Part shown: piece by piece, positions 7,851 to 30,770 of the stretch
Layout of the letters: each line of letters begins with the position of its first letter
Numbering within the stretch: the first letter of the stretch is position 1
DNA from: an uncultured Clostridia bacterium
GTDB lineage: Bacteria; Bacillota; Clostridia; Christensenellales; Borkfalkiaceae
Assembly: GCA_947629665.1 (NCBI GenBank)
Contig: CANREJ010000007.1
Coordinates: 1 to 51,436 of the forward strand
Direction of reading: 5' to 3'
Length of the DNA: 51,436 nucleotides
Made by a program: the position numbers and the translations under genes
The notes under the pieces: model-generated
Told to the model about the DNA's origin: nothing
Database searches by the model: none
Seen by the model: only the letters and a program-made list of their open reading frames with translations

Positions 7851-8320
7851 TTAAGTTCACAAAATTCTCGGCAAGCCGTGCCTGCGCCCGCCTTAATGCG
7901 CGTTGCAATTATTTTAAAATTGCGTGAGCCGCAATTACAAAGTTAGCAACGGGTTAAAAACAAGCATGACTACAATTATTATAAATAATTATGTTGCAAG
8001 CAGGGTTTCCCTGCGCCGCAAGCCACAATTTGCAAACACTTTTGCCTCAGCGGTGGGAATTGCCGCCATTATATTATTGTGCGCCCTTAAATATGGCGGC
8101 AAGGGCGGCTGGCCGCCCAAACTCACGGAAATTCGCAGTGCGCGCAACCGCACGAGAATTTTTGTGAACTCTGTTTTTACGAAGTCTGCAAGTGCGCAGA
8201 TACGAGCAGAACGAGGCGCCTGCGAATTTTGCGACAGGAGTTTACTTAACGGTAAATGACTGAGCAAAAACGCAAAGGCAACAATGTTATGCGACGTATA
8301 TCCGCGCTTGCCGCGCGAGC
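7851..8320. repeat. Composite dispersed repeat, copy C
   Basis: Same orientation as copy B, with 'caatttgcaaacacttttgcctcagcgg'-type centre, the inverted 'ttgtgcgcccttaaa' core, the TCACGGAAATTCGCAGTGCG hairpin and the terminal 'acaatgttatgcgacg' and 'ccgcgcttgccgcg' modules. It ends exactly at the stop codon of jag. No gene seen. Confidence 0.8.
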
Positions 8321-11293: not shown

Positions 11294-12396
11294 GCGTTAT
11301 TGGAAGTGCGTACGGGTAAAATGAGATACAGCGCGCTCTTATCTTCAAGATTCTGGCAGGTGAAGGGCTGTACCTGGTTGTTGAAGGATATCACTATTTT
11401 ATCCTCCTGCAAGGCGTTCACCGCCTCTATTATGAACTTGGAGTTCATCGCTATTTTTACGTCCTTGCCCTCCATATGCGCCTTTACGGGCTCCTGCACG
11501 TTGCCTATTTCCGAAGAGGAAGAGATTTCTATCTTGTCGCCCGTTATGTCAAAGGTTATCAGGCTGTTCTTATCCCCCCTCACAAGTATTGCCGCACGCT
11601 CTATGGACTCCTTTAATTTGTCCTTTTCCACCGTAACTTCGGTTATGAACGAGCGGGGGATTATGTTCTCCTTCTTGATAAAGTCCCCGCCGTAGAGCCG
11701 CGACGTCAGCACGGTGTTGTCGCTGGATACGAGTATCATTCCCCTCTGCACGAAAATTTCCGTTTCCTCGGCGCTTTCGGGGATCATCTTTTCTATTTCG
11801 TTCAGCGTCCTTGCGGGGCAGACTATCTCCATGTTGCCCGTGGAGGACACAACCTTGCCCGAAACGGTAGCCAGCCTGAACCCGTCGAGGGAGGTTACGC
11901 ATATATCGTCGCCGTTTATAATGAACTGGCAGCCCTTCAAAATGGGTCTGGAATCGTCCGCGGCACAGCAGAAGGAGGTGGAAGTTATGAACCTTTTGAG
12001 GTCGGCAGTCTTTAATTTAAAGCTGTTCTCCTTTATTTCGAGGTCTATCCGCGGAAATTCATCGGCGGAGAGCACCTGCATGCTCGTCTGGCTGTCCGAG
12101 TACACTATGTCCATCTTTTTGTCCTGGGTGGAGAGGATTATCTGCACGTCCTCCAACTTTTTGATAAAATCGCAAAAATATTTGCCGGGGACGCACACCT
12201 CGCCGTCCTCGTAAACTTCGGCGGGAATGGTCTTTATTATGGCAATTTCGCCGTCCGTCGCCGAGAGCGTGAGCTTATCGTTTTTTGCCGAGAGCTTTAT
12301 GCACTCCAAGACGGGAACGGTAGTCTTTGAGGAACAGGCCTTTACAACTTTAAGCACCGCTTCCGACAGATTGATTCCTTCACAAACACACTTCAT
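11290..12396 (-). CDS. dnaN: DNA polymerase III beta subunit (sliding clamp)
   Basis: About 368 residues forming three repeated clamp domains, starting MKCVCEGINLSEAVLKVVKACS. The family segments TTVPVLECIKLSA, RPILKGCQFIINGDDICVTSLDGFRLA and the C-terminal end SALYLILPVRTSNNA (the usual 'L.LPVR') are visible. It forms a dimeric ring that tethers DNA polymerase. ATG at 12396 is preferred over the upstream TTG because AAGGGG lies nine bases before it. Normally dnaA sits directly upstream; here the upstream neighbour is a 390-bp AT-rich gap and divergent rsmG, with dnaA absent. The transcript continues toward rpmH. Confidence 0.98.
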   Translation of the reverse strand: MKCVCEGINLSEAVLKVVKACSSKTTVPVLECIKLSAKNDKLTLSATDGEIAIIKTIPAEVYEDGEVCVPGKYFCDFIKKLEDVQIILSTQDKKMDIVYSDSQTSMQVLSADEFPRIDLEIKENSFKLKTADLKRFITSTSFCCAADDSRPILKGCQFIINGDDICVTSLDGFRLATVSGKVVSSTGNMEIVCPARTLNEIEKMIPESAEETEIFVQRGMILVSSDNTVLTSRLYGGDFIKKENIIPRSFITEVTVEKDKLKESIERAAILVRGDKNSLITFDITGDKIEISSSSEIGNVQEPVKAHMEGKDVKIAMNSKFIIEAVNALQEDKIVISFNNQVQPFTCQNLEDKSALYLILPVRTSNNA

Positions 12397-12402
12397 ACCC
12401 AA

Positions 12403-12787
12403 AAACCCCTTTGCGGCGCACAGCCGCCCTATGTTTTATTTTTATTTTATTAAAAGATTATTAAAGTATAATTAATAATAATGGGCGGTGGAAATGTGTA
12501 CAATTACGCGCGCCCGTACAAATATAGATATATAATATCAAAAATAACGGAAAAAAGCAAACGATTAGGCGGGAATATATCAACAAAACGCCCGATTTTT
12601 TTGGGGATTTAAGGGTTGAAGGATTGTGGAAAGGTGGAAACAAAGCCGCCCGTTCAGCTGTCTTTATTTTAATAATTTAAAAAAATAAGGAGGCGCGGAA
12701 AAATTTTAAGGGGTTATCAACCGGCTTTTGTGGATTGTGGATATTTTATATGTTGAAATTGTTTAAAATTTTTGGTATAATGCGGGT
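12403..12787. other. AT-rich dnaN-rsmG intergenic region with DnaA-box-like sites
   Basis: No gene. On the minus strand the boxes ATATCCACA (12744-12736) and CAATCCACA (12737-12729) overlap by two bases; CTTTCCACA (near 12624-12632), TTATCAACC (12713-12721) and TTGTACACA-like sequence near 12495 are further weak matches to TTATCCACA. Runs of A/T surround them. It sits at a switch from leftward to rightward genes. This may be a second, weaker origin element or a DnaA-regulated promoter. Confidence 0.5.
12753..12781 (+). promoter_or_regulatory. Promoter of rsmG, probable leaderless transcript
   Basis: TTGAAA (12753-12758), 17-bp spacer, TATAAT (12776-12781), then six bases to the ATG at 12788. 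Transcription would begin at about the A of the start codon, and no Shine-Dalgarno sequence is present. Confidence 0.75.
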
Positions 12788-13468
12788 ATGGACGAACAGC
12801 GGCTTAAAGACCTTATCGGCGGGGAATACAGCGAAAAATTCACCCTCTACAAAGAACTCTTGCAGGAGTACGGAAAAATGTTCAATATCACCTCCGTTCT
12901 GGACGACGGGGGCATATTTTACAGGCATTTTTTGGACAGCATAGCGGGTGAAGAGTACTTTTTTGGGGGAGCGGACGTGGCAGAAGTTGGGTCCGGCGGC
13001 GGTTTTCCCTCCATTCCCCTCAAAATAATAAGGGACGATTTAAAGTTTACTTTGATGGAAAGCACGGGCAAAAAGTGCGCGTTTTTGCAGACCGTTGTGG
13101 ATAAACTCGGCTTAAACGGTGTACAAGTGCTGAATGTACGCGCGGAGGACGCGGGCAGGGACGAAAGATACAGGCAAAAATTCGGCGTTTGCTGCGCGAG
13201 GGCGGTTGCAAGGCTGAACGTGCTTGCCGAGTACTGCCTGCCCTTTGTTGAAGAGGGCGGGAGGTTCATCGCCTACAAGGGCGACTGCGCGGACGAGATA
13301 ACCGGGGCGAAAAACGCGATTAAGATTTTGGGCGGGGAGATAGAGGATATAGTTGAATACAACCTGCAAAACTGCGGCAAGCGCACGCTTGTGATAGTAA
13401 GAAAAATTGCGCCCACCCCGTTTAAATATCCGCGGGGCAACGCAAAGGTGAAAAAGAATCCGCTATGA
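12788..13468 (+). CDS. rsmG: 16S rRNA (guanine527-N7)-methyltransferase
   Basis: A 226-residue cytosolic SAM-dependent methyltransferase that modifies G527 of 16S rRNA. The SAM-binding motif VAEVGSGGGFPSIPL (about 65-79), the preceding FYRHFLDSI and the later CARAVARLNVLAEYCLP and GGRFIAYKG match the GidB/RsmG family. In most Firmicutes it follows mnmE-mnmG; those genes are missing here and it faces dnaN instead. Its ATG follows the -10 box by six bases. Its stop overlaps the next gene's start (ATGA). Confidence 0.97.
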   Translation: MDEQRLKDLIGGEYSEKFTLYKELLQEYGKMFNITSVLDDGGIFYRHFLDSIAGEEYFFGGADVAEVGSGGGFPSIPLKIIRDDLKFTLMESTGKKCAFLQTVVDKLGLNGVQVLNVRAEDAGRDERYRQKFGVCCARAVARLNVLAEYCLPFVEEGGRFIAYKGDCADEITGAKNAIKILGGEIEDIVEYNLQNCGKRTLVIVRKIAPTPFKYPRGNAKVKKNPL

Positions 13469-13911
13469 GCGTCTGTTGTTTTACGGGACACCGCGTTTTG
13501 AAGGATTTGGACGCGGCGCTTCTGGACAGGGTTATAACCAATCTCGTAAAGGCGGGTTGCAGGCGCTTTTTATGCGGGATGGCAAAGGGCTTTGATTTGG
13601 CCGCCGCCGAGAGCGTGATTGCTCTCAAAAGGGCATATCCGGGGGTCAATCTGGTTGCGTGCATACCTTGCGGGGAGCAGGCGGACGGTTATTCGGCGAC
13701 CGATAAGTGGCGTTATAAAAGGATATTGTCCAACTGTGAGGAAGTTATAGTGCTGTCGGAAAGTTACTATAACGGCTGTATGCACGTGCGCGACCGGTTC
13801 ATGGTGGACAACAGCGACATTGTGTTGTGTTATTTGAGGGAAAAGTCCGGCGGGACGTATTATACGGTGAGGTATGCCGGGGAGTGCGGTTTAAAAATAA
13901 TCGAGTTGTAG
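13465..13911 (+). CDS. SLOG-fold protein of the YpsA/DUF1273 type
   Basis: A 148-residue protein. The N-terminal CCFTGHRVL (residues 4-12), then LCGMAKGFDLAAAESVI (about 37-53) and VLSESYYNGCMHVRDRFMVDNSDIVLCY (about 96-123) fit the SLOG Rossmann-like nucleotide-binding family of B. subtilis YpsA. SLOG proteins are thought to bind nucleotides or nucleotide-derived ligands; YpsA affects cell division in B. subtilis, but function here is not shown by the sequence. The ATG overlaps the rsmG stop (ATGA), implying translational coupling. SLOG proteins also occur in defence loci, and the accessory cassette begins 0.6 kb downstream. Confidence 0.87.
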   Translation: MSVCCFTGHRVLKDLDAALLDRVITNLVKAGCRRFLCGMAKGFDLAAAESVIALKRAYPGVNLVACIPCGEQADGYSATDKWRYKRILSNCEEVIVLSESYYNGCMHVRDRFMVDNSDIVLCYLREKSGGTYYTVRYAGECGLKIIEL

Positions 13912-14410
13912 CTCCCGCGGCAAGCGCGGATATACATCGCATAACATTGTTGTCTTTACGTTTTTGCTCGGTTATTTACGTCTAAGTAAACTCCCGTCGC
14001 AAAATCCGCAGGCGCCTCGTTCTGCTCGTATCTGCGCACTTGCTAACTACGTAAAAACAGAGTTCACAAAAATTTTCGTGCGGTTGCGCGCACTCAAATT
14101 TTTCGTGATTTGAGGAGCCGGCTCCTCTTTGCACCATATTTAAGGGCGCACAATAATATAATGGCGCAAATTCACCCTGCTGCGCGAGCGAAGCGACGCC
14201 CTGCCGAGGCTCCCTGCGGGAAACGGCAGAGGCAAAAGTATTTGCAAATTGAGTGCGCTGGCGCAAAAGCGTGGTTTTGCTTGCGCCGTAAAATATTCAG
14301 GAACATGTACACTCCCGTCGTCGCTTACGCACACTCCTTGTCTTGCTTGTTTCTAACCCGTTGTAGACTTCGTAAATACAGAGTTCACAAAAATCTCGGC
14401 AGGCTTCTTT
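13912..14410. repeat. Composite dispersed repeat, copy D (inverted)
   Basis: The inverse of copies B and C: starts with 'ccgcggcaagcgcggatat' and 'cgcataacattgttg', then 'gagttcacaaaaattttcgtgcggttgcgcgcact', 'aagggcgcacaataatataatggcgc', and ends with 'cttgtagacttcgtaaat' type sequence and 'gagttcacaaaaatctcgg'. It fills the space between the SLOG gene and the HNH gene. No gene seen. Confidence 0.8.
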
Positions 14411-14529
14411 CACTTAAAATTATAAAAAAATGCAATATATATCGCAAAATTTAATGGAAAATATGTAATTTTTTATAGTTCTCTTTACTTTGCCGATAAT
14501 TGATGGTATCATTTATTAAGGATAAAATT

Positions 14530-15039
14530 ATGTTTACATTGGAAGAATTAGCGTCAGATGAGACGATAAAAAAAGAGTACAAAAAATCATTACTGCTCAA
14601 TATATTTAAAAAATTAGTTGTGATGATGAAAAGAGACGATACAATGAAATTAAAAGTACGCAAGCTGTTTTTGCAAACAACAGATGCGGAAATGACAACG
14701 AAAATCATAGTTTCCAAGTATTTTAATTTTGATCTTTCCAAAGAAGATGCCCATACAATGTTTCAATGGATCAATGCTCACTTTAATAAACAGCCAAAAA
14801 GAAAAATTATTTCTTTGGATTTCAAAGAGAAATTATATCGGTTACAAAACGGCAAATGTGCTGTGTGTGGCGAAGATTTGGGGGAAGATTTGTCTAAAAT
14901 ACAAGTAGACCACATTATTCCATGGGTGTTGGTAGGCGACGAATTGGAGAATAACTATCAATGCCTTTGTCAAACTTGTAATGAGTGTAAAAGCGCACAT
15001 ACCGATTATATTTTCAAAAAACTTATAAATTTAAATTAA
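14530..15039 (+). CDS. HNH endonuclease
   Basis: A 169-residue protein from the ATG at 14530, which has AAGGA seven bases upstream; an in-frame ATG at 14503 lacks such a site. The C-terminal half is a zinc-stapled HNH nuclease: C110-x2-C113, D127-H128-IIP, N142, C147-x2-C150-N151, K154. The N-terminal half (1-90) is helical, rich in Lys/Glu/Leu, with no recognised domain. It would cut DNA or act as a nickase, using one metal at the HNH site. It lies 10 bp upstream of the DGQHR gene, same strand, so they are probably co-transcribed. The pair is visibly more AT-rich than neighbours, and is flanked by repeats, signs of horizontal acquisition. A defence or mobile-DNA role is inference. Confidence 0.92.
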   Translation: MFTLEELASDETIKKEYKKSLLLNIFKKLVVMMKRDDTMKLKVRKLFLQTTDAEMTTKIIVSKYFNFDLSKEDAHTMFQWINAHFNKQPKRKIISLDFKEKLYRLQNGKCAVCGEDLGEDLSKIQVDHIIPWVLVGDELENNYQCLCQTCNECKSAHTDYIFKKLINLN

Positions 15040-15049
15040 AGGGTATCAT

Positions 15050-16126
15050 ATGAAAAAAATTTATTTGCAAAAAATAGAACAATACAATTCTGTATCGTAT
15101 GTTGGAAAAATTGATCCGAGGGATTTAATACAAGTCGCCACGAAGATAGAAATAGGGGAAACACAGGATGCTCAACGGCCGTTAAGTGCAAAAAGAATCA
15201 AAGAAATCGCCAAATATGTTGGGGATGAAAAAGGTATTCTTCCAAACACCTTAACCATATCAACCAAAGACAGCCGGTTCAAAATCAATCGCGAGCCGAC
15301 TACGGATTTTTTCTATATTGAGTTTCCCAACGAATCTGCGGAATTTGCCGATTATAAGGACGCCATAGATATTTTGGATGGTCAGCACAGGCTATATTCT
15401 TTTATGGAAGAATTGCGCAAAATCAATGATAATGATAAATATGAAATCGGTTTTACTATGTATATATGCCCCACACTATTCGAACGCCGCAGAATTTTTA
15501 TTAGTTGCAACGAAAAGCAGGAAAAAGTCAGTGGCAATCTCTTAATGTGGTTCAGAGAAAAATTAAATATGCTGTCTTCGGAAGAGAAAAAGCTATACAA
15601 TATAGTAACAAAGTTAAACCAGGAATATCCGCTGAAAGGACGCATAATTTTAAGTGCCGAAAAGGTAGCAAACGGCATAAAATCAAAAGAAATTATGAAT
15701 ATTATAAGACAGGCGAAGATATGTAACATCTCGATAAACGATGAGATCCTCACGGAGGATCAAATTGTAAAATTGATATGTACATACTTGCGGGCATGGG
15801 AAAGCGTAGTGGATTTTAAATTTTCTTCGCCGATTATCAAGAAAGACGGGCCCGCAGTTAAGCAAGCCGGCATACGGTATATGCTATTGATTTTACCTAC
15901 GGTTTGGGATAGGGCACTGGCTATGCATGAAAAATTCACCGTGGAATTTGTACAACAAACGCTGATTCAGTTCATGACAACGCAAGGTGTTGTAAGAAAT
16001 GAATTTTTTACGTGCGATGAAAACAAATTTAAATTCAGGGATCGTTCGGTGATAGAACAATTTGCAAATGAAAGTATTCAAAAAATTAAAACAATGAATG
16101 TAGGCGATTTCAATCCGTTGTCGTAG
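15050..16126 (+). CDS. DGQHR-domain protein (DndB-like family)
   Basis: A 358-residue protein with the eponymous DGQHR at residues 110-114 in the context AIDILDGQHRLYSF. An AQRPLSAKRIKEIAKYV segment (41-57) precedes it, as in ParB-like/DndB proteins where target positions follow. DGQHR proteins include DndB, the regulator of phosphorothioate DNA modification genes, and standalone members found in defence islands; no dndC, dndD or dndE gene is present here. A ribosome site (AAAGGG) precedes the ATG. The C-terminal 200 residues are helical, without recognised motifs. Adjacent to the HNH gene, AT-rich codon use, then a hairpin and the 70-bp repeat array. Function inferred only from family and context. 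Confidence 0.88.
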   Translation: MKKIYLQKIEQYNSVSYVGKIDPRDLIQVATKIEIGETQDAQRPLSAKRIKEIAKYVGDEKGILPNTLTISTKDSRFKINREPTTDFFYIEFPNESAEFADYKDAIDILDGQHRLYSFMEELRKINDNDKYEIGFTMYICPTLFERRRIFISCNEKQEKVSGNLLMWFREKLNMLSSEEKKLYNIVTKLNQEYPLKGRIILSAEKVANGIKSKEIMNIIRQAKICNISINDEILTEDQIVKLICTYLRAWESVVDFKFSSPIIKKDGPAVKQAGIRYMLLILPTVWDRALAMHEKFTVEFVQQTLIQFMTTQGVVRNEFFTCDENKFKFRDRSVIEQFANESIQKIKTMNVGDFNPLS

Positions 16127-16150
16127 ATACATTATGGTTTGTAATTTAAA

Positions 16151-16172
16151 CGGCGCGCCATTCGGCGCGCCG
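16151..16172. terminator. Hairpin after the DGQHR gene
   Basis: Perfect 9-bp GC stem CGGCGCGCC/GGCGCGCCG with loop ATTC, 25 bp after the stop codon. The T-run is poor (CTATGTTT), so termination strength is uncertain. It abuts the first 70-bp repeat. Confidence 0.5.
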
Positions 16173-16185
16173 CTATGTTTGAATA

Positions 16186-16650
16186 GCGCCCAAGTTCGTC
16201 TACTGCCAACGCAATTAAGAAACCCAGGTGTAGCGTTACGCTTCCTGCTTGACTTGCGCCCAAGTTCGTCTACCGTCAAAGTAATTAAGAAACCCAGGTG
16301 AAGCGTTACGCTTCCCCGTTTGTCCTGCGCCCAAGTTCGTCTACTGCCAACGCAATTAAGAAACCCAGGTGTAGCGTTACGCTTCCTGCTTGACTTGCGC
16401 CCAAGTTCGTCTACCGTCAAAGTAATTAAGAAACCCAGGTGAAGCGTTACGCTTCCCGCTTGACCTGCGCCCAAGTTCGTTTACCGCCAACGCAATTAAG
16501 AAACTCGGGTGAAGCGTTACGCTTCCCGCTTGACGGGCGCAAAAGTTCGTCTACCGCCAACGCAATTAAGAAACCCAAGTAAAGCGTTACGCTTCCCGCT
16601 TGACCTGCGCCCAAGTTCGTCTATTGTCAACGCAATTAAGAAACTTGGCC
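16186..16650. repeat. Tandem array of about seven 70-bp repeats
   Basis: Unit starts (GCGCCCAAGTTCGTC or variant) fall at 16186, 16256, 16327, 16397, 16467, 16537 and 16607, a period of 70 bp with one of 71; the last is truncated. Each unit contains AATTAAGAAACCCAGGT and the palindrome GAAGCGTTACGCTTC or a one-base variant. Alternating sub-types (CTACTGCCAACGC versus CTACCGTCAAAGT) show two-unit duplications in the first four units. The period is not a multiple of three, and no frame reads as a sensible protein. The last unit overlaps the 3' end of yyaC. Related solitary units lie near 23.4 and 30.7 kb. Confidence 0.92.
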
Positions 16651-17205
16651 ACAGCGACACGCTGCTTGGAGGAAGGTGGCAATGCCTTCGGCGATAATTT
16701 CGGACATTTTATAGACAATATTCAGCCGCGTTGCCGAGAACAGCGAATAATTAAACACCGAGCGCTCGGCAACAATACCCATCACGGACACGTCGCCCAC
16801 CTTATTTAATTTTTTGTTTGCGCCGCTCCCCGGTTTAATTGCCCGCTTTGCGATTTTAATCAGCCCGATATCCCCGGCAACGCCCACGGCGGCGTCCACC
16901 GCGATAACGGGACTGCCGGGGTGCGTGAACTTTAAAAAATCATTCATATATTTAACTTCGTGAGCGGTGATGGGCTTTGCCAGCGTGCCGTACACAAAAC
17001 AGCTGAGCCCCGCAAGTTTCTCTTTAAGCTTGGTGCCGGTAACCGGCCCTAAACTGTCCCCCACGGAGAGGTCGCTGCCGATACACAAAACCACGGGCGC
17101 AACCCCGGTTTGCGGCACGTTTTTTTTGAGCGACAGACACACCCCGTCCGCCGCGAGCGAATTGTACAGGTTAAACGAATAGTCCATAACAACGTTTATT
17201 GCCAT
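16636..17205 (-). CDS. yyaC: YyaC family spore protease-like protein (DUF1256)
   Basis: A 189-residue protein. The core VVLCIGSDLSVGDSLGPVTGTKL (about 38-60), VYGTLAKPITAHEV (about 71-84) and VIAVDAAVGV (about 100-109) match the sporulation-linked DUF1256 family, which is structurally related to the germination protease/hydrogenase maturation protease fold. It is typically found only in endospore formers and often near the chromosome origin with parA and parB, as here. A GGGGA ribosome site precedes the ATG. The last 10-12 residues (LQAACRCGQVS) are encoded by the terminal truncated 70-bp repeat, so the original 3' end may have been replaced. Confidence 0.92.
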   Translation of the reverse strand: MAINVVMDYSFNLYNSLAADGVCLSLKKNVPQTGVAPVVLCIGSDLSVGDSLGPVTGTKLKEKLAGLSCFVYGTLAKPITAHEVKYMNDFLKFTHPGSPVIAVDAAVGVAGDIGLIKIAKRAIKPGSGANKKLNKVGDVSVMGIVAERSVFNYSLFSATRLNIVYKMSEIIAEGIATFLQAACRCGQVS

Positions 17206-17365
17206 TCCCCGCGCAAAATATCCTCAATTTTCCAAAAACCCCACCATACCATATTATGACCGCAATTTAACGGGCGGTTATTTTTTATGCGCCCCCAAAA
17301 AATCTTTGCGCCAAAGCCCGTTCGGCGCAATCCAAAAACGTCGGTGCAGACAAAGAGCTGAAAAA

Positions 17366-17600
17366 TTATCAACATTGTATCCACAATTCAACAACAATTA
17401 CACAACCCGAAAGCGCAACAAAAGCGGCAAAAAGCGTGGAATTTTATCCACAATTATACACAAAATAAGATATATTGAATTCCGCCCGCCCCAAAACCCA
17501 AAAAAGTTATCCACAATTTGTAAAGAATGTGTAAAGATTTCCACAAAACCCGCACCATAGAAGAAACTGAAAGCCGAAAAAATTATCCACAATGTCCACA
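17366..17600 (+). other. Probable oriC: cluster of DnaA boxes
   Basis: Perfect TTATCCACA boxes at 17444-17452, 17507-17515 and 17583-17591; close variants TTATCAACA (17366-17374), GTATCCACA (17377-17385), TTATACACA (17454-17462), ATTTCCACA (17537-17545) and ATGTCCACA (17592-17600). All lie on the same strand. AT-rich, T-rich sequence follows to 17880, with two parS-like sites beside it, all in a 700-bp gap between yyaC and ftsH. This is the strongest origin signature in the window. dnaA itself is not adjacent. Confidence 0.8.
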
Positions 17601-17623
17601 AACAGCGGTTTTTACGCGCTTTA

Positions 17624-17639
17624 CGTTCCACGTGAAACA
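17624..17639. promoter_or_regulatory. parS-like ParB binding site 1
   Basis: CGTTCCACGTGAAACA differs from the TGTTNCACGTGAAACA consensus only at the first base. It lies between the DnaA boxes and ftsH, 4.3 kb from parB. Confidence 0.85.
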
Positions 17640-17666
17640 AAAACGTGGCACAAAAATTTGGTTAAA

Positions 17667-17682
17667 TGTTTCACGTTAAACA
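17667..17682. promoter_or_regulatory. parS-like ParB binding site 2
   Basis: TGTTTCACGTTAAACA, one mismatch (T for G at position 11), 27 bp beyond site 1 and next to the AT-rich part of the presumed origin. Confidence 0.75.
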
Positions 17683-17822
17683 TTTTTTGGGTAGTAATTT
17701 CAAGGGGCGCACGCACAATTTTTTTAACAAAACAATATTTTACGAACAATTGAACGCTTTTAAAGGGGTGCGGAAGTTAAATAAAAATTGTGTGATAAAG
17801 TTGCTTTTGGACGTTTAAACGC

Positions 17823-17851
17823 TTGAAATGCGCGCAAATGTATGATAAAAT
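17823..17851 (+). promoter_or_regulatory. Probable ftsH promoter
   Basis: TTGAAA (17823-17828), 17-bp spacer, TAAAAT (17846-17851), 49 bases before the TTG start of ftsH. Confidence 0.6.
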
Positions 17852-17900
17852 GAGTAGTATCTTAATAAAATAAACCTATATTGAATAAAGGAGTTGTATT

Positions 17901-20048
17901 TTGAGCAAAAAAGGCAAAATAGTGATGTGGGTGATTATCCTGGCGCTCGTTATCGCTGTGGTGGTTACGCTTGTAATGAATATGTTGCCGCGCGCCATTT
18001 CGGTCGATTACAGCGTGTTCCAGGAATACGTTGAAAACGCCAAGTATTTTGACGACGACGGCAAGGCCACCGACGTTAACGGCACCCCCGAAGGCTACAC
18101 CATTGAAGACGACAAGTGGGTCAAACACACACAGAACCAAAACGGACAGGACGTTACAGAGGAACTTATAGCCATCAAGCGCATACAGTTTGACGCCTAT
18201 GAATACACCGGCACCCGCCTCAATTCAAACGGCACCTGGGGCCAGCAATACACCTGCTTTGGGCCTTCGGCGTTTTCTACGGAGAGCTTAAAGGAAGATT
18301 CCATGTTGCAGACTTGGATGGACAACGGCGTTGCGCTGAGCTTTGAAAACCCCAACGCAGGCAGCTGGTGGTCCTCCGCACTTACGATAGGCTCGCTTAT
18401 AATAGTTGTGCTGATATTCTTCTTCCTCATCCGCTCGACCATGGGCGGCAGGGGCGGCATAGCCAGCTTTGCAAAGAGCAAGGCCAGCGTAACCACAAAT
18501 ATCCGCGTGCGCTTTACAGACGTGGCGGGCGCAGAAGAGGAAAAGGTAGAGCTTGCCGAGATAGTTGAGTTTTTGCGCCAGCCTAAAAAGTTTGCGGATT
18601 TGGGGGCGCGCGTACCCAAGGGCGTGCTTTTGGTCGGCCCTCCCGGAACGGGTAAAACGCTGTTTGCAAAGGCCGTTGCGGGCGAAGCGGGCGTGCCCTT
18701 CTTCTCCGTTTCCGGCTCCGACTTTGTGGAAATGTACGTGGGCGTGGGCGCGTCGCGTGTGCGCGACCTATTTGATATGGCCAAAAAGAACCAGCCCTGC
18801 ATAATCTTCATCGACGAAATCGACGCAGTCGGCCGCCACCGCGGGGCAGGCCTCGGCGGCGGGAACGATGAACGCGAGCAGACCCTCAACCAGATACTTG
18901 TGGGCATGGACGGCTTTGAAAGCAACGAGGGCGTGATAATAATGGCGGCAACCAACCGCGCAGACATTCTCGACCCCGCGCTCATGCGTCCCGGCAGGTT
19001 CGACAGGCAAATTTACGTAAACCTTCCCGACGTAAAGGGCAGGGAGCAGATATTAAAGGTACATTCGCGCAACAAACCGCTTGCGCCGGAAGTAAACTTT
19101 AAGACGGTTGCAAGAATGACGGCGGGCTTTTCGGGCGCGGACCTTGCGAACCTCTTGAACGAGGCGGCCATTCTCGCCGCCCGCGCGGGCAAAAAATTCA
19201 TAACCAACACCGAGCTGTACGAGGCCATAAACAAGGTTTTGATGGGCCCGCAAAAGAAGAGCTGGGTTGTTACGGAGAGCGACAAGCGCATAACCGCCTA
19301 CCACGAATCTGGGCACGCCATAATCGCGCGCCTGTGCGAAAACTGCGACCCCGTGCAGGAAGTAACCATAATCCCCCGCGGCAACGCGGCGGGCTACACC
19401 ATGACCCGTCCGGACAACGACGACATGCACCTTTCCAGGGCCAAGCTCAAAGACGTTATCTGCATGATGCTCGGCGGCAGGGTTGCCGAGGAGATTGTTA
19501 TTAAAGATATAACCACGGGCGCCTCCAACGACTTGGAGCGCGTAACGGAAACGGCAAAGCGCATGGTAACGGAGTGGGGCATGAGCGAAAAGCTGGGGCT
19601 TGTTACCTACGGCTCCAACTCCCAGACGGTGTTCCTCGGCAAGGACATGGAAACGCACAACGCCTACTCCGAGGAAACGGCAAGGGCGATAGACGCGGAG
19701 ATGAAATCCATTATAGAAACCGCGCACGCACGCGCAACAAAGCTCCTCACCGACAACAGGAGCGTGCTTGACAACATGGCGCGCGTACTCATAGAGCGCG
19801 AAACCATATACACCGAAGAGGTAGACCTTTTGATGGAAGGCAAGAGCCATGCGGAGGTGATTGCCTACATGGACGAACACGACAGCATAAACAAGGAAAA
19901 TCCCTTCAAACGCTACGAGGAGAACGTACAAAAAGAAGAGAACGAGCCCAAGTCAACGCCCGCGGAGAACGGGCAAAAAGAGGAAGAACAGCCCAAGGGC
20001 GGACCAGCAAACGGTGGGGAGAACAAGGGGGACGGGGAAGCCTCCTGA
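17901..20048 (+). CDS. ftsH: ATP-dependent zinc metalloprotease FtsH
   Basis: A 715-residue membrane-anchored AAA+ protease that degrades misfolded and regulatory proteins. Two membrane segments (about 8-28 and 155-178) flank an outer domain. The AAA module has Walker A GPPGTGKT (about 245-252), Walker [12 protein letters not shown] (about 300) and RPGRFDRQI. The zinc protease has HESGH (about 468-472). A charged tail ([20 protein letters not shown]) closes it. The start is TTG, with AAAGGAG seven bases upstream. In Bacillus ftsH follows tilS-hpt near the origin; here it lies directly beside the presumed oriC. A parS-like site follows its stop. Confidence 0.98.
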
Positions 20049-23345: not shown

Positions 23346-23389
23346 TCGAGGTTGGATAAAACGGCAACAAAATTCAAGTTTGACCTGCG

Positions 23390-23446
23390 GAAAAGTAAGT
23401 CAAGTGTAAAAGTAATTAAGAAACCCAGGTCAAGCGTTACGCTTGC
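23390..23446. repeat. Solitary relative of the 70-bp array unit
   Basis: Contains AGTAATTAAGAAACCCAGGT followed by CAAGCGTTACGCTTG, the signature core and palindrome of the 16.2-16.65 kb array, in the same orientation. It ends at the stop codon of the leftward gene at 23447. Confidence 0.85.
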
Positions 23447-28177: not shown

Positions 28178-29284
28178 ATGACAAAGATCGATATTTTTTC
28201 GGGATTTTTGGGCGCAGGCAAAACCACGCTCATCAAAAAGCTCATTAAAGAGGCTTATGCGGGCGAAAAACTCGTATTGATTGAAAACGAATTCGGCGAA
28301 ATAGGCATTGACGGCGGCTTTCTGGCGGACGCGGGCATAAAAATCAACGAACTGAACTCCGGCTGTATTTGCTGTTCGCTCGTGGGCGACTTTGCAAAGG
28401 CTCTCAAAAAAGTGCAGGAGGAATACGCCCCCGACAGGATACTCATAGAGCCGTCGGGCGTGGGCAAGCTCTCGGACGTTATCCGCGCCGTGGCGGAGGC
28501 GGGTCTGCAAGACGCCAAAATCAACACCTTCTCGGCAGTTGTGGACGCGGGCAAGTGCAAAATGTACATGAAGAACTTCGGCGAGTTCTTTAACGACCAG
28601 ATAGAAACGGCGGCATGTATAATCTTTTCGCATGCCGACGTAACCTCCCCCGAAAAGCTCGCAAAGGCGGTGGAACTCGTGCGCGGACACAACGCCGGAG
28701 CCACTATTGTAACCACCCCCTGGCAACAGCTCGACGGCAAGGATATACTCTCGGCAATGGAACACGCCGACACGCTTGAAAGCGAGTTGCGGGAGCTTAT
28801 GGAGGACGTCTGCGACGATGACGACCATGACGACCATGACGATGATGAATGCTGTTGCGGCCATCACGACCACGGCCATGAACATGAGCACGAACACGAG
28901 CATGAACATTGCCACCATGACCATGAGGACGAGCATGAGCACGAACATTGCCATCATGACCATGAGGACGAGCATAACCATGAGCATCATCACCATCACC
29001 ACCATGCGGACGAAGTGTTTACAAGCTGGGGAGTTGAAACGGGCAAGGCGTTCGGCGCGGAGGAACTCAAAGACATGCTCTCACAGCTTTCCGACGCGGT
29101 GCGCTTCGGCACTATACTGCGCGCAAAGGGCATAGTTGCGGGCGGCGACGGCAAGTGGTTGCACTTTGACTACGTGCCCAGACAAACGGACATCCGCGAG
29201 GGCGCGGCGGCGTACGCGGGCAGACTGTGCGTGATAGGTTCAAAGATCGACGAAGAGGAGCTGAAAGAGCTCTTCGGCGTCTAA
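28178..29284 (+). CDS. CobW/COG0523 GTPase with His-rich metal-binding insert
   Basis: A 368-residue G3E GTPase. Walker A FLGAGKTTL (10-18), switch-like ENEFGEIGID (36-45), the COG0523 metal motif CICC (63-66), EPSG (about 94) and SHADV (about 151). Residues about 210-280 are an extraordinary His/Glu/Asp/Cys stretch with about 29 histidines, ending in seven in a row; the DNA shows imperfect 36-39 bp tandem duplication of an EHEHCHHDHEDEH-type unit. A CobW C-terminal domain follows. COG0523 proteins act as metal (often Zn) chaperones. A second CobW-like gene follows after 34 bp. Confidence 0.95.
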   Translation: MTKIDIFSGFLGAGKTTLIKKLIKEAYAGEKLVLIENEFGEIGIDGGFLADAGIKINELNSGCICCSLVGDFAKALKKVQEEYAPDRILIEPSGVGKLSDVIRAVAEAGLQDAKINTFSAVVDAGKCKMYMKNFGEFFNDQIETAACIIFSHADVTSPEKLAKAVELVRGHNAGATIVTTPWQQLDGKDILSAMEHADTLESELRELMEDVCDDDDHDDHDDDECCCGHHDHGHEHEHEHEHEHCHHDHEDEHEHEHCHHDHEDEHNHEHHHHHHHADEVFTSWGVETGKAFGAEELKDMLSQLSDAVRFGTILRAKGIVAGGDGKWLHFDYVPRQTDIREGAAAYAGRLCVIGSKIDEEELKELFGV

Positions 29285-30669: not shown

Positions 30670-30770
30670 TTTTTTGTTTGAATAGCATCAACCTTCGTCA
30701 AGCGTAAAGGCAATTAAGATACCTGTCAGCGGCGACACGCCGCTACGTTTGACTTGCGGTAAAGTATGCT
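30670..30770. repeat. Diverged relative of the 70-bp array unit
   Basis: Contains TTTGAATAGC, AACCTTCGTC, GCAATTAAGATACCTG and a palindrome GCGGCGACACGCCGC, aligning with the array units (GTTTGAATAGCGCCCAAGTT, AATTAAGAAACCCAG), followed by GTTTGACTTGCGG. Confidence 0.65.

Follow-up and report, generated by a model that had tools for sequence, protein, structure and literature searches.

In several described systems a ParB-like nucleoside triphosphatase (NTPase) and an HNH nuclease lie on one chain, as the reports on GmrSD/BrxU, SspE and DndI state (PMC4619093, PMC11662687, PMC12373910, PMC13251355). SspE is described as linking recognition with GTP hydrolysis and HNH cleavage (PMC13251355), and a further report describes bacterial ParB-HNH fusions and a DndB-like protein that binds both ATP and GTP (PMC12704722). 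Two adjacent genes are required for type IV restriction by GmrS1-GmrSD2 of E. coli ECOR17, according to its report (PMC12373910). Here we describe two adjacent genes, one for a small HNH protein and the other for a DGQHR-domain protein, in a 51,436-nucleotide stretch of DNA from an uncultured Clostridia bacterium, referred to as a whole as the window. To our knowledge, DGQHR proteins abound in sequence collections, and outside Dnd and Dpd most of them lack an explanation.

Searching the GTDB contig collection with a DGQHR profile built from 38 sequences gave 29 loci: 11 of them (L023-L033; 47-58% identity) form the close family and the other 18 are distant DGQHR loci. Counts over 12 pair loci or genomes refer to the window together with L023-L033.

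In logic, the closest systems appear from domain comparison to be GmrSD/BrxU, SspE and DndI. However, GmrSD/BrxU combine DUF262 with DUF1524, whereas the pair consists of two small separate genes in which neither was matched: DUF262 (PF03235) was not matched by the DGQHR protein, for which PF14072 was the sole Pfam match at E ≤ 1, and DUF1524 (PF07510) was not among the Pfam models matching the HNH protein at E ≤ 1 (HNH, HNH_5 and others matched). The motif also differs, being DGQQR in GmrSD/BrxU and DGQHR here. SspE and DndI, which sense phosphorothioate, each consist of one chain and are linked to Ssp or Dnd modification genes, whereas here there are two genes; DndC was not found in any of the 12 pair genomes, and no search aimed at Ssp genes was made. 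DndB and DpdB share the domain family of the DGQHR protein (TIGR03187, PF14072), but the latter falls far under both equivalog cut-offs (15.8 bits against 328 for DndB, 36.8 bits against 300 for DpdB) and its constant partner is an HNH nuclease. The pair resembles GmrS1-GmrSD2 in having two adjacent genes; in that system a ParB-like domain is present in both genes, one of which is fused to the nuclease, whereas here nuclease and DGQHR domain are fully separate. Since the tested features of GmrSD, DndB and DpdB are lacking, the pair may well work like GmrSD and SspE without belonging to them, and we regard a two-gene, NTP-gated nuclease of this kind, outside those families, as evenly balanced between right and wrong. 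No PADLOC model describes the HNH-DGQHR pair, nor was its description found in the literature searched, which covered few subscription papers and bioRxiv preprints; the suggestion of the first-pass annotation that the pairing may be undescribed stands as far as these two sources go.

The HNH-DGQHR pair and its conservation

The features of the pair in the window are as follows.

14530-15039, + strand: HNH gene, 169 amino acids (aa), with an N-terminal all-helical domain (about residues 1-90) and a C-terminal zinc-type HNH domain (about residues 92-169)
14803-15036, + strand: HNH (His-Me finger) catalytic domain inside the HNH gene, from profile and fold matches
15050-16126, + strand: DGQHR-domain gene, 358 aa, a distant relative of DndB/DpdB (TIGR03187, PF14072)
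15071-15526, + strand: probable ParB/sulfiredoxin-like NTPase domain of the DGQHR protein (residues about 8-159), with QR, DGQHR and FxxxN motifs

The two genes are both on the + strand, 10 bp apart, and each is preceded by a Shine-Dalgarno-like stretch, which for the HNH gene is AAGGA, 7 nt ahead of the ATG. The spacing and the domain assignments given in the first-pass annotation agree with these open reading frames (ORFs) and their family scores, and so does its remark on AT-richness: the GC content is 0.34 for 14401-16130 against 0.515 in the remaining window, and none of 4,624 other 1,730-bp stretches of the window, sampled in 10-bp steps, was as GC-poor (minimum 0.444).

The HNH protein matched Pfam HNH (PF01844) with 32.8 bits against a cut-off of 21.4. 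The predicted zinc and catalytic residues of the HNH domain are conserved: C110, C113, D127, H128, N142, C147, C150, N151 and K154 are identical in 12/12 pair loci, and the same nine are invariant across 30 aligned sequences. The predicted structure had a predicted local distance difference test (pLDDT) score of 90.5, and a profile search matched solved HNH domains (best E 4e-5). The top fold matches of the model were the 4h9d HNH nickase and T4 endonuclease VII at E 0.007-0.012, with no match at E ≤ 0.001 in the fold search. The best PADLOC match was a type II restriction enzyme (29.4 bits), covering the HNH part alone.

The DGQHR protein scored 100.6 bits against the TIGR03187 cut-off of 58.85, was also above the cut-off of PF14072, and keeps the DGQHR motif in 12/12 pair loci. 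Its best PADLOC models were DpdB, at 38.6 bits, and DndB, at 13.9 bits. ParB/sulfiredoxin-type structures head the structural comparison of the model made with a second-look aligner, the resemblance being moderate; Foldseek and a PDB sequence search gave nothing significant for it, so the resemblance rests on that aligner. From the model, the N-terminal part is a probable ParB/sulfiredoxin-like NTPase domain.

The pair is a real, conserved two-gene unit. Direct inspection of gene content finds the HNH gene immediately upstream of the DGQHR gene in 11/11 close-family loci, whose hosts span several phyla: Bacteroidaceae, Alistipes, Prevotellaceae, Lachnospiraceae, Spirochaetaceae, three other Clostridia, Elusimicrobiaceae and two unplaced bacteria. 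Adjacency in the examined loci is strict, with a gap of 1-22 bp in 10/11 and of 53 bp in L033, whose DGQHR gene has a broken frame close to the start. Each of the 12 pair genomes has a single strong HNH match, and five also have weaker partial ones. Among 398 genomes of the window's phylum, 12 had an HNH-profile match at E ≤ 1e-10 (four matches were not fetched), and a full-length match in a small ORF occurred in two, the window's own and G521, both paired. In G521 the order is swapped: the DGQHR gene (profile E about 1e-63) comes first and the first HNH ATG lies 2 bp past its stop, with identities of 34% for DGQHR and 32% for HNH. A partnership kept despite swapped gene order argues that the products work together. 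On the question whether the two genes are conserved as neighbours, the answer is positive in 11/11 close relatives and in one distant one.

At six other fetched loci from the phylum search, the HNH domain was matched rather than the whole small protein, and no DGQHR neighbour lay within about 1.5 kb. In 395 genomes of L023's phylum the sole full-length small-ORF match was in L023's own genome; 11 others had an HNH-profile match, most of the profile being covered in G727 (residues 9-156, in a 333-aa frame) and G965 (residues 8-158, in an 853-aa frame), and no DGQHR ORF was found within about 1.5 kb of the match in G727. At the 18 distant DGQHR loci, the fetched DNA contained no ORF that this HNH profile matched at E ≤ 0.01. 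Directly after distant DGQHR genes lie genes of about 305-350 aa with group-specific starts: the next gene has 305-350 aa in L034, L036-L039, L046 and L047, 336 aa in L040-L043 and about 315 aa in L044 and L049. The survey suggests that DGQHR domains have several alternative partners.

Two further comparisons bear on the partnership. Among the 120 matches listed of 395 DGQHR clusters, 37 share their longest-contig size with 117 HNH clusters, which is indirect support, and the mirror-tree correlation of HNH and DGQHR was weak. No HNH-DGQHR fusion was seen among the 120 listed of 206 matches to a 527-aa concatenated query, in a search that scored the 7,999 candidates with most words in common.

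No third gene is common to all 11 pairs when ORFs of at least 80 aa are clustered, the flanks of L025, L027, L028, L029 and L031 ending at contig ends. Two tightly coupled genes, with no third common gene and a patchy distribution, would also fit a toxin-antitoxin or abortive module in which the HNH protein would attack the DNA of its own cell, with the DGQHR protein restraining it until infection. DndI, a ParB-like/HNH protein, harms cells that lack the modification, as its report states (PMC11662687). However, the larger DGQHR protein retains three NTPase-type motifs, presumably beyond the need of a simple antitoxin, and we consider such a module unlikely.

In 3/11 pair loci (L026 7369-7449, L027 750-842 and L031 862-910) the HNH gene has short tandem repeats at most about 260 bp upstream; their units of 3-28 bp are unrelated to the repeat array in the window. 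Such repeats could be regulatory, and one could imagine that the DGQHR protein is only a DndB-like transcriptional regulator while the HNH protein acts alone. Yet the DndB score is far below its cut-off, DndC was not found in the pair genomes, and in G521 the DGQHR gene precedes the HNH gene, so that order is free while the partnership is kept. We find a mere regulator quite improbable.

Defence context and possible mode of action

We propose that the pair is a horizontally moving two-gene operon for an NTP-gated DNA nuclease divided over two proteins. The DGQHR protein, with its probable ParB/sulfiredoxin-like fold and C-terminal helical domain, would bind and hydrolyse nucleotide and would recognise some characteristic of invading DNA, a modification being the likeliest. 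The resulting change of state would license or release the HNH protein, whose N-terminal helical domain may hold the DGQHR protein in a complex and which would then nick or cut DNA. Such a working mode would resemble that of GmrSD or SspE/DndI, in which a single chain carries both the sensor NTPase and the HNH nuclease. More tentatively, and at slightly less than even chances, the pair may be a hitherto undescribed anti-phage system of two components: a DGQHR NTPase with a ParB fold would gate a separate HNH nuclease in trans, and the system would move alone among bacteria of several phyla without Dnd or Dpd modification genes, forming a new DGQHR-based (not DUF262) branch of modification-dependent, type IV-like restriction. 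The strict DGQHR-HNH partnership, free of Dnd and Dpd, offers a pair small enough to clone with which the question of what DGQHR domains sense can be approached. It would also show that the NTPase-HNH logic of GmrSD and SspE can operate in trans.

A defence role is plausible. Recognisable defence genes lie near 5/11 pair loci: C5 methyltransferases at L023 and L024, with a TIR protein also at L024; ThsB-like TIR proteins, a caspase-like and an AbiLi-like protein at L026; type II methyltransferases and a type II restriction enzyme at L029; and type I restriction-modification subunits, an NgoFVII-like nuclease and a member of the C5 methyltransferase cluster at L032. In an ORF-level comparison of ORFs of at least 150 aa from the 11 pair loci and from 11 arbitrary stretches of the same genomes (leaving out ORF L109:1-7794, with control stretches L112 and L113 short), 93 pair-neighbour ORFs matched 168 PADLOC families at E ≤ 1e-15 against 28 from 115 control ORFs. 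The commonest methyltransferase model was found in 6/93 pair-neighbour ORFs against 1/115 control ORFs, and the commonest control model, mad3, in 4/115 control ORFs.

After the pair itself, the next-commonest neighbour cluster was the C5 methyltransferases, in 3/11 loci; in L023 the methyltransferase starts 50 bp past the DGQHR stop. It is therefore conceivable that the pair is a self-marking restriction-modification partner, which would cut DNA according to whether a host mark is missing or present, the mark being set by a second enzyme (a C5 methyltransferase, for instance), and would not by itself sense phage-specific modification; DndI spares phosphorothioated self DNA through ATPase control (PMC11662687). 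However, 8/11 loci lack a member of that cluster in the fetched flanks, several of which end at contig ends. DndC was found in 0/12 pair genomes, which are drafts (the same search gave matches in 5/14 controls, none above the cut-off), and DpdA above the cut-off was found in 0/12, with one weak match in G290 (21.2 bits against 200). We hold a partnership with a separate marking enzyme to be rather improbable. Dependence on Dnd or Dpd modification is likewise unsupported by these searches, and the earlier remark that no dnd genes accompany the pair holds for DndC in the window's genome.

Spread and probable insertion site

The distribution of the pair is patchy, as seen directly in the genomes searched. 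Within the genus, this DGQHR family was found in 1/93 genomes, the window's own, and among 200 genomes of the order only in the same genome, apart from a weak match in G145. The weak DGQHR matches of the genus fall in frames of 757 and 778 aa in G145 and G265. These long frames (L022 403-2673, minus strand, and L108) lie outside this family, and the first (L022) carries a DndB Pfam domain.

The site itself is recognisable without the pair. The yyaC gene was detected in 45/61 genus genomes, and of 29 relatives with a fetched locus, 19 have an SLOG gene and yyaC at the same site; HNH or DGQHR genes were found in 0/29 of the fetched sequences. The pair looks horizontally acquired, in keeping with the mobile character suggested by the first-pass annotation. 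Both flanks are dispersed repeats, so it appears that a repeat-rich intergenic site received the pair, and recombination at the repeats may have been its route of arrival.

Carriage of the pair by phages or plasmids was considered, and searches of plasmids, phages and viral contigs gave no support for it. A tblastn search of plasmids and phages with the DGQHR protein gave no match, and neither did scans of viral contigs with this protein or with the distant L121 DGQHR. The DGQHR profile found two distant DGQHR loci without this HNH in the viral contigs, and the HNH profile found ten weak or partial HNH loci, 0 of them with a DGQHR ORF in the fetched DNA. The L121 query matched three plasmid records at about 25% identity and no phages.

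The flanking repeats

Three further features adjoin the pair.

16152-16171, + strand: 8-bp GC-rich hairpin shortly 3' of the DGQHR stop, from a computed fold, with no T run after it
16186-16673, + strand: seven-unit 70-bp repeat array, a copy of a dispersed repeat, outside the two-gene system
13960-14390, + strand: left flank, a second dispersed repeat, outside the two-gene system

The hairpin is strong, the 64-nt fold of 16127-16190 having -26.4 kcal/mol (z -2.8). Tandem Repeats Finder placed the array at 16186-16644 (87% matches, score 713), with seven unit starts spaced 70, 71, 70, 70, 70 and 70. The hairpin followed by seven palindrome-bearing units was therefore read correctly at first. 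The array reaches about 16673 because the 3' end of yyaC, with its stop at 16636-16638, falls within the last unit. That unit overlaps yyaC over 16636-16673, and thus the repeat supplies the final codons of yyaC.

The repeat belongs to a family of 60-70-bp units in runs of 1-9, with at least 50 matches in its own 1.86-Mb genome (40/55 first-look candidates scored); merging those within 300 bp of each other leaves at least 37 places on 25 contigs. Further units lie in the window at 23386-23446 and 30689-30744, and also in loci L002-L020. Of 21 repeat clusters, none is inside an ORF of at least 130 aa, and three (in the window, L012 and L019) extend 15-29 bp into the end of an ORF. The repeat was matched in 10/61 genus genomes; five units adjoin yyaC in G205 and single units flank it on both sides in G251, and neither genome has the pair.

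We aligned 86 units from 19 own-genome sequences (the window and 18 fetched loci). Across the 83 that are unique, complementarity in the six stem pairs is 96% (474/493); shuffling gave 77% on average (maximum 80%), and slid partners gave 19-53%. Five of the six vary on both sides. None of these counts represents independent events, as the units are related by duplication. Such variation, in which complementarity is kept, would be expected of a hairpin formed by RNA or single-stranded DNA more than of a fixed site for protein binding. Rfam gave no match in 12000-18000 at E ≤ 1. Repetitive extragenic palindromic (REP) elements moved by a REP-associated tyrosine (RAYT) transposase were considered and set aside, no Y1 transposase (PF01797) being found in the window's genome, a single genome about 91% complete.

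The first-pass annotation had taken the array for regulatory, target or self-recognition DNA of the pair and asked whether it travels with the two genes. Its adjacency is what favours a target, operator or self-recognition role. Against this stand the many places where the repeat occurs, its presence beside yyaC in G205 and G251 without the pair, the absence of any unit (E ≤ 1) from the sequences fetched for the other 11 pair loci, and a palindrome that varies with compensation, unlike a fixed binding site. Judged by the refuting condition that the first-pass annotation had set, arrays with no pair nearby, the array fails; it was rejected as a part of the pair system, and we give such a role almost no credence.

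The left-flank repeat has 61 matches in its own genome, at 40 merged places. This second family is dispersed and mosaic, and occurs in the window also at 8048-8271 and 2763-2986, and elsewhere.

The surroundings are those of a replication origin, in agreement with the original reading. The origin region holds rnpA, yidD, yidC, dnaN, parA and parB, named from ORF translations, as well as rsmG, identified also by Pfam, and the cumulative GC skew has its minimum at about 12.5 kb of the window. Farther along, at 28876-28987, lies a short tandem repeat rich in CAT/CAC triplets, which could give a His-rich stretch if translated.

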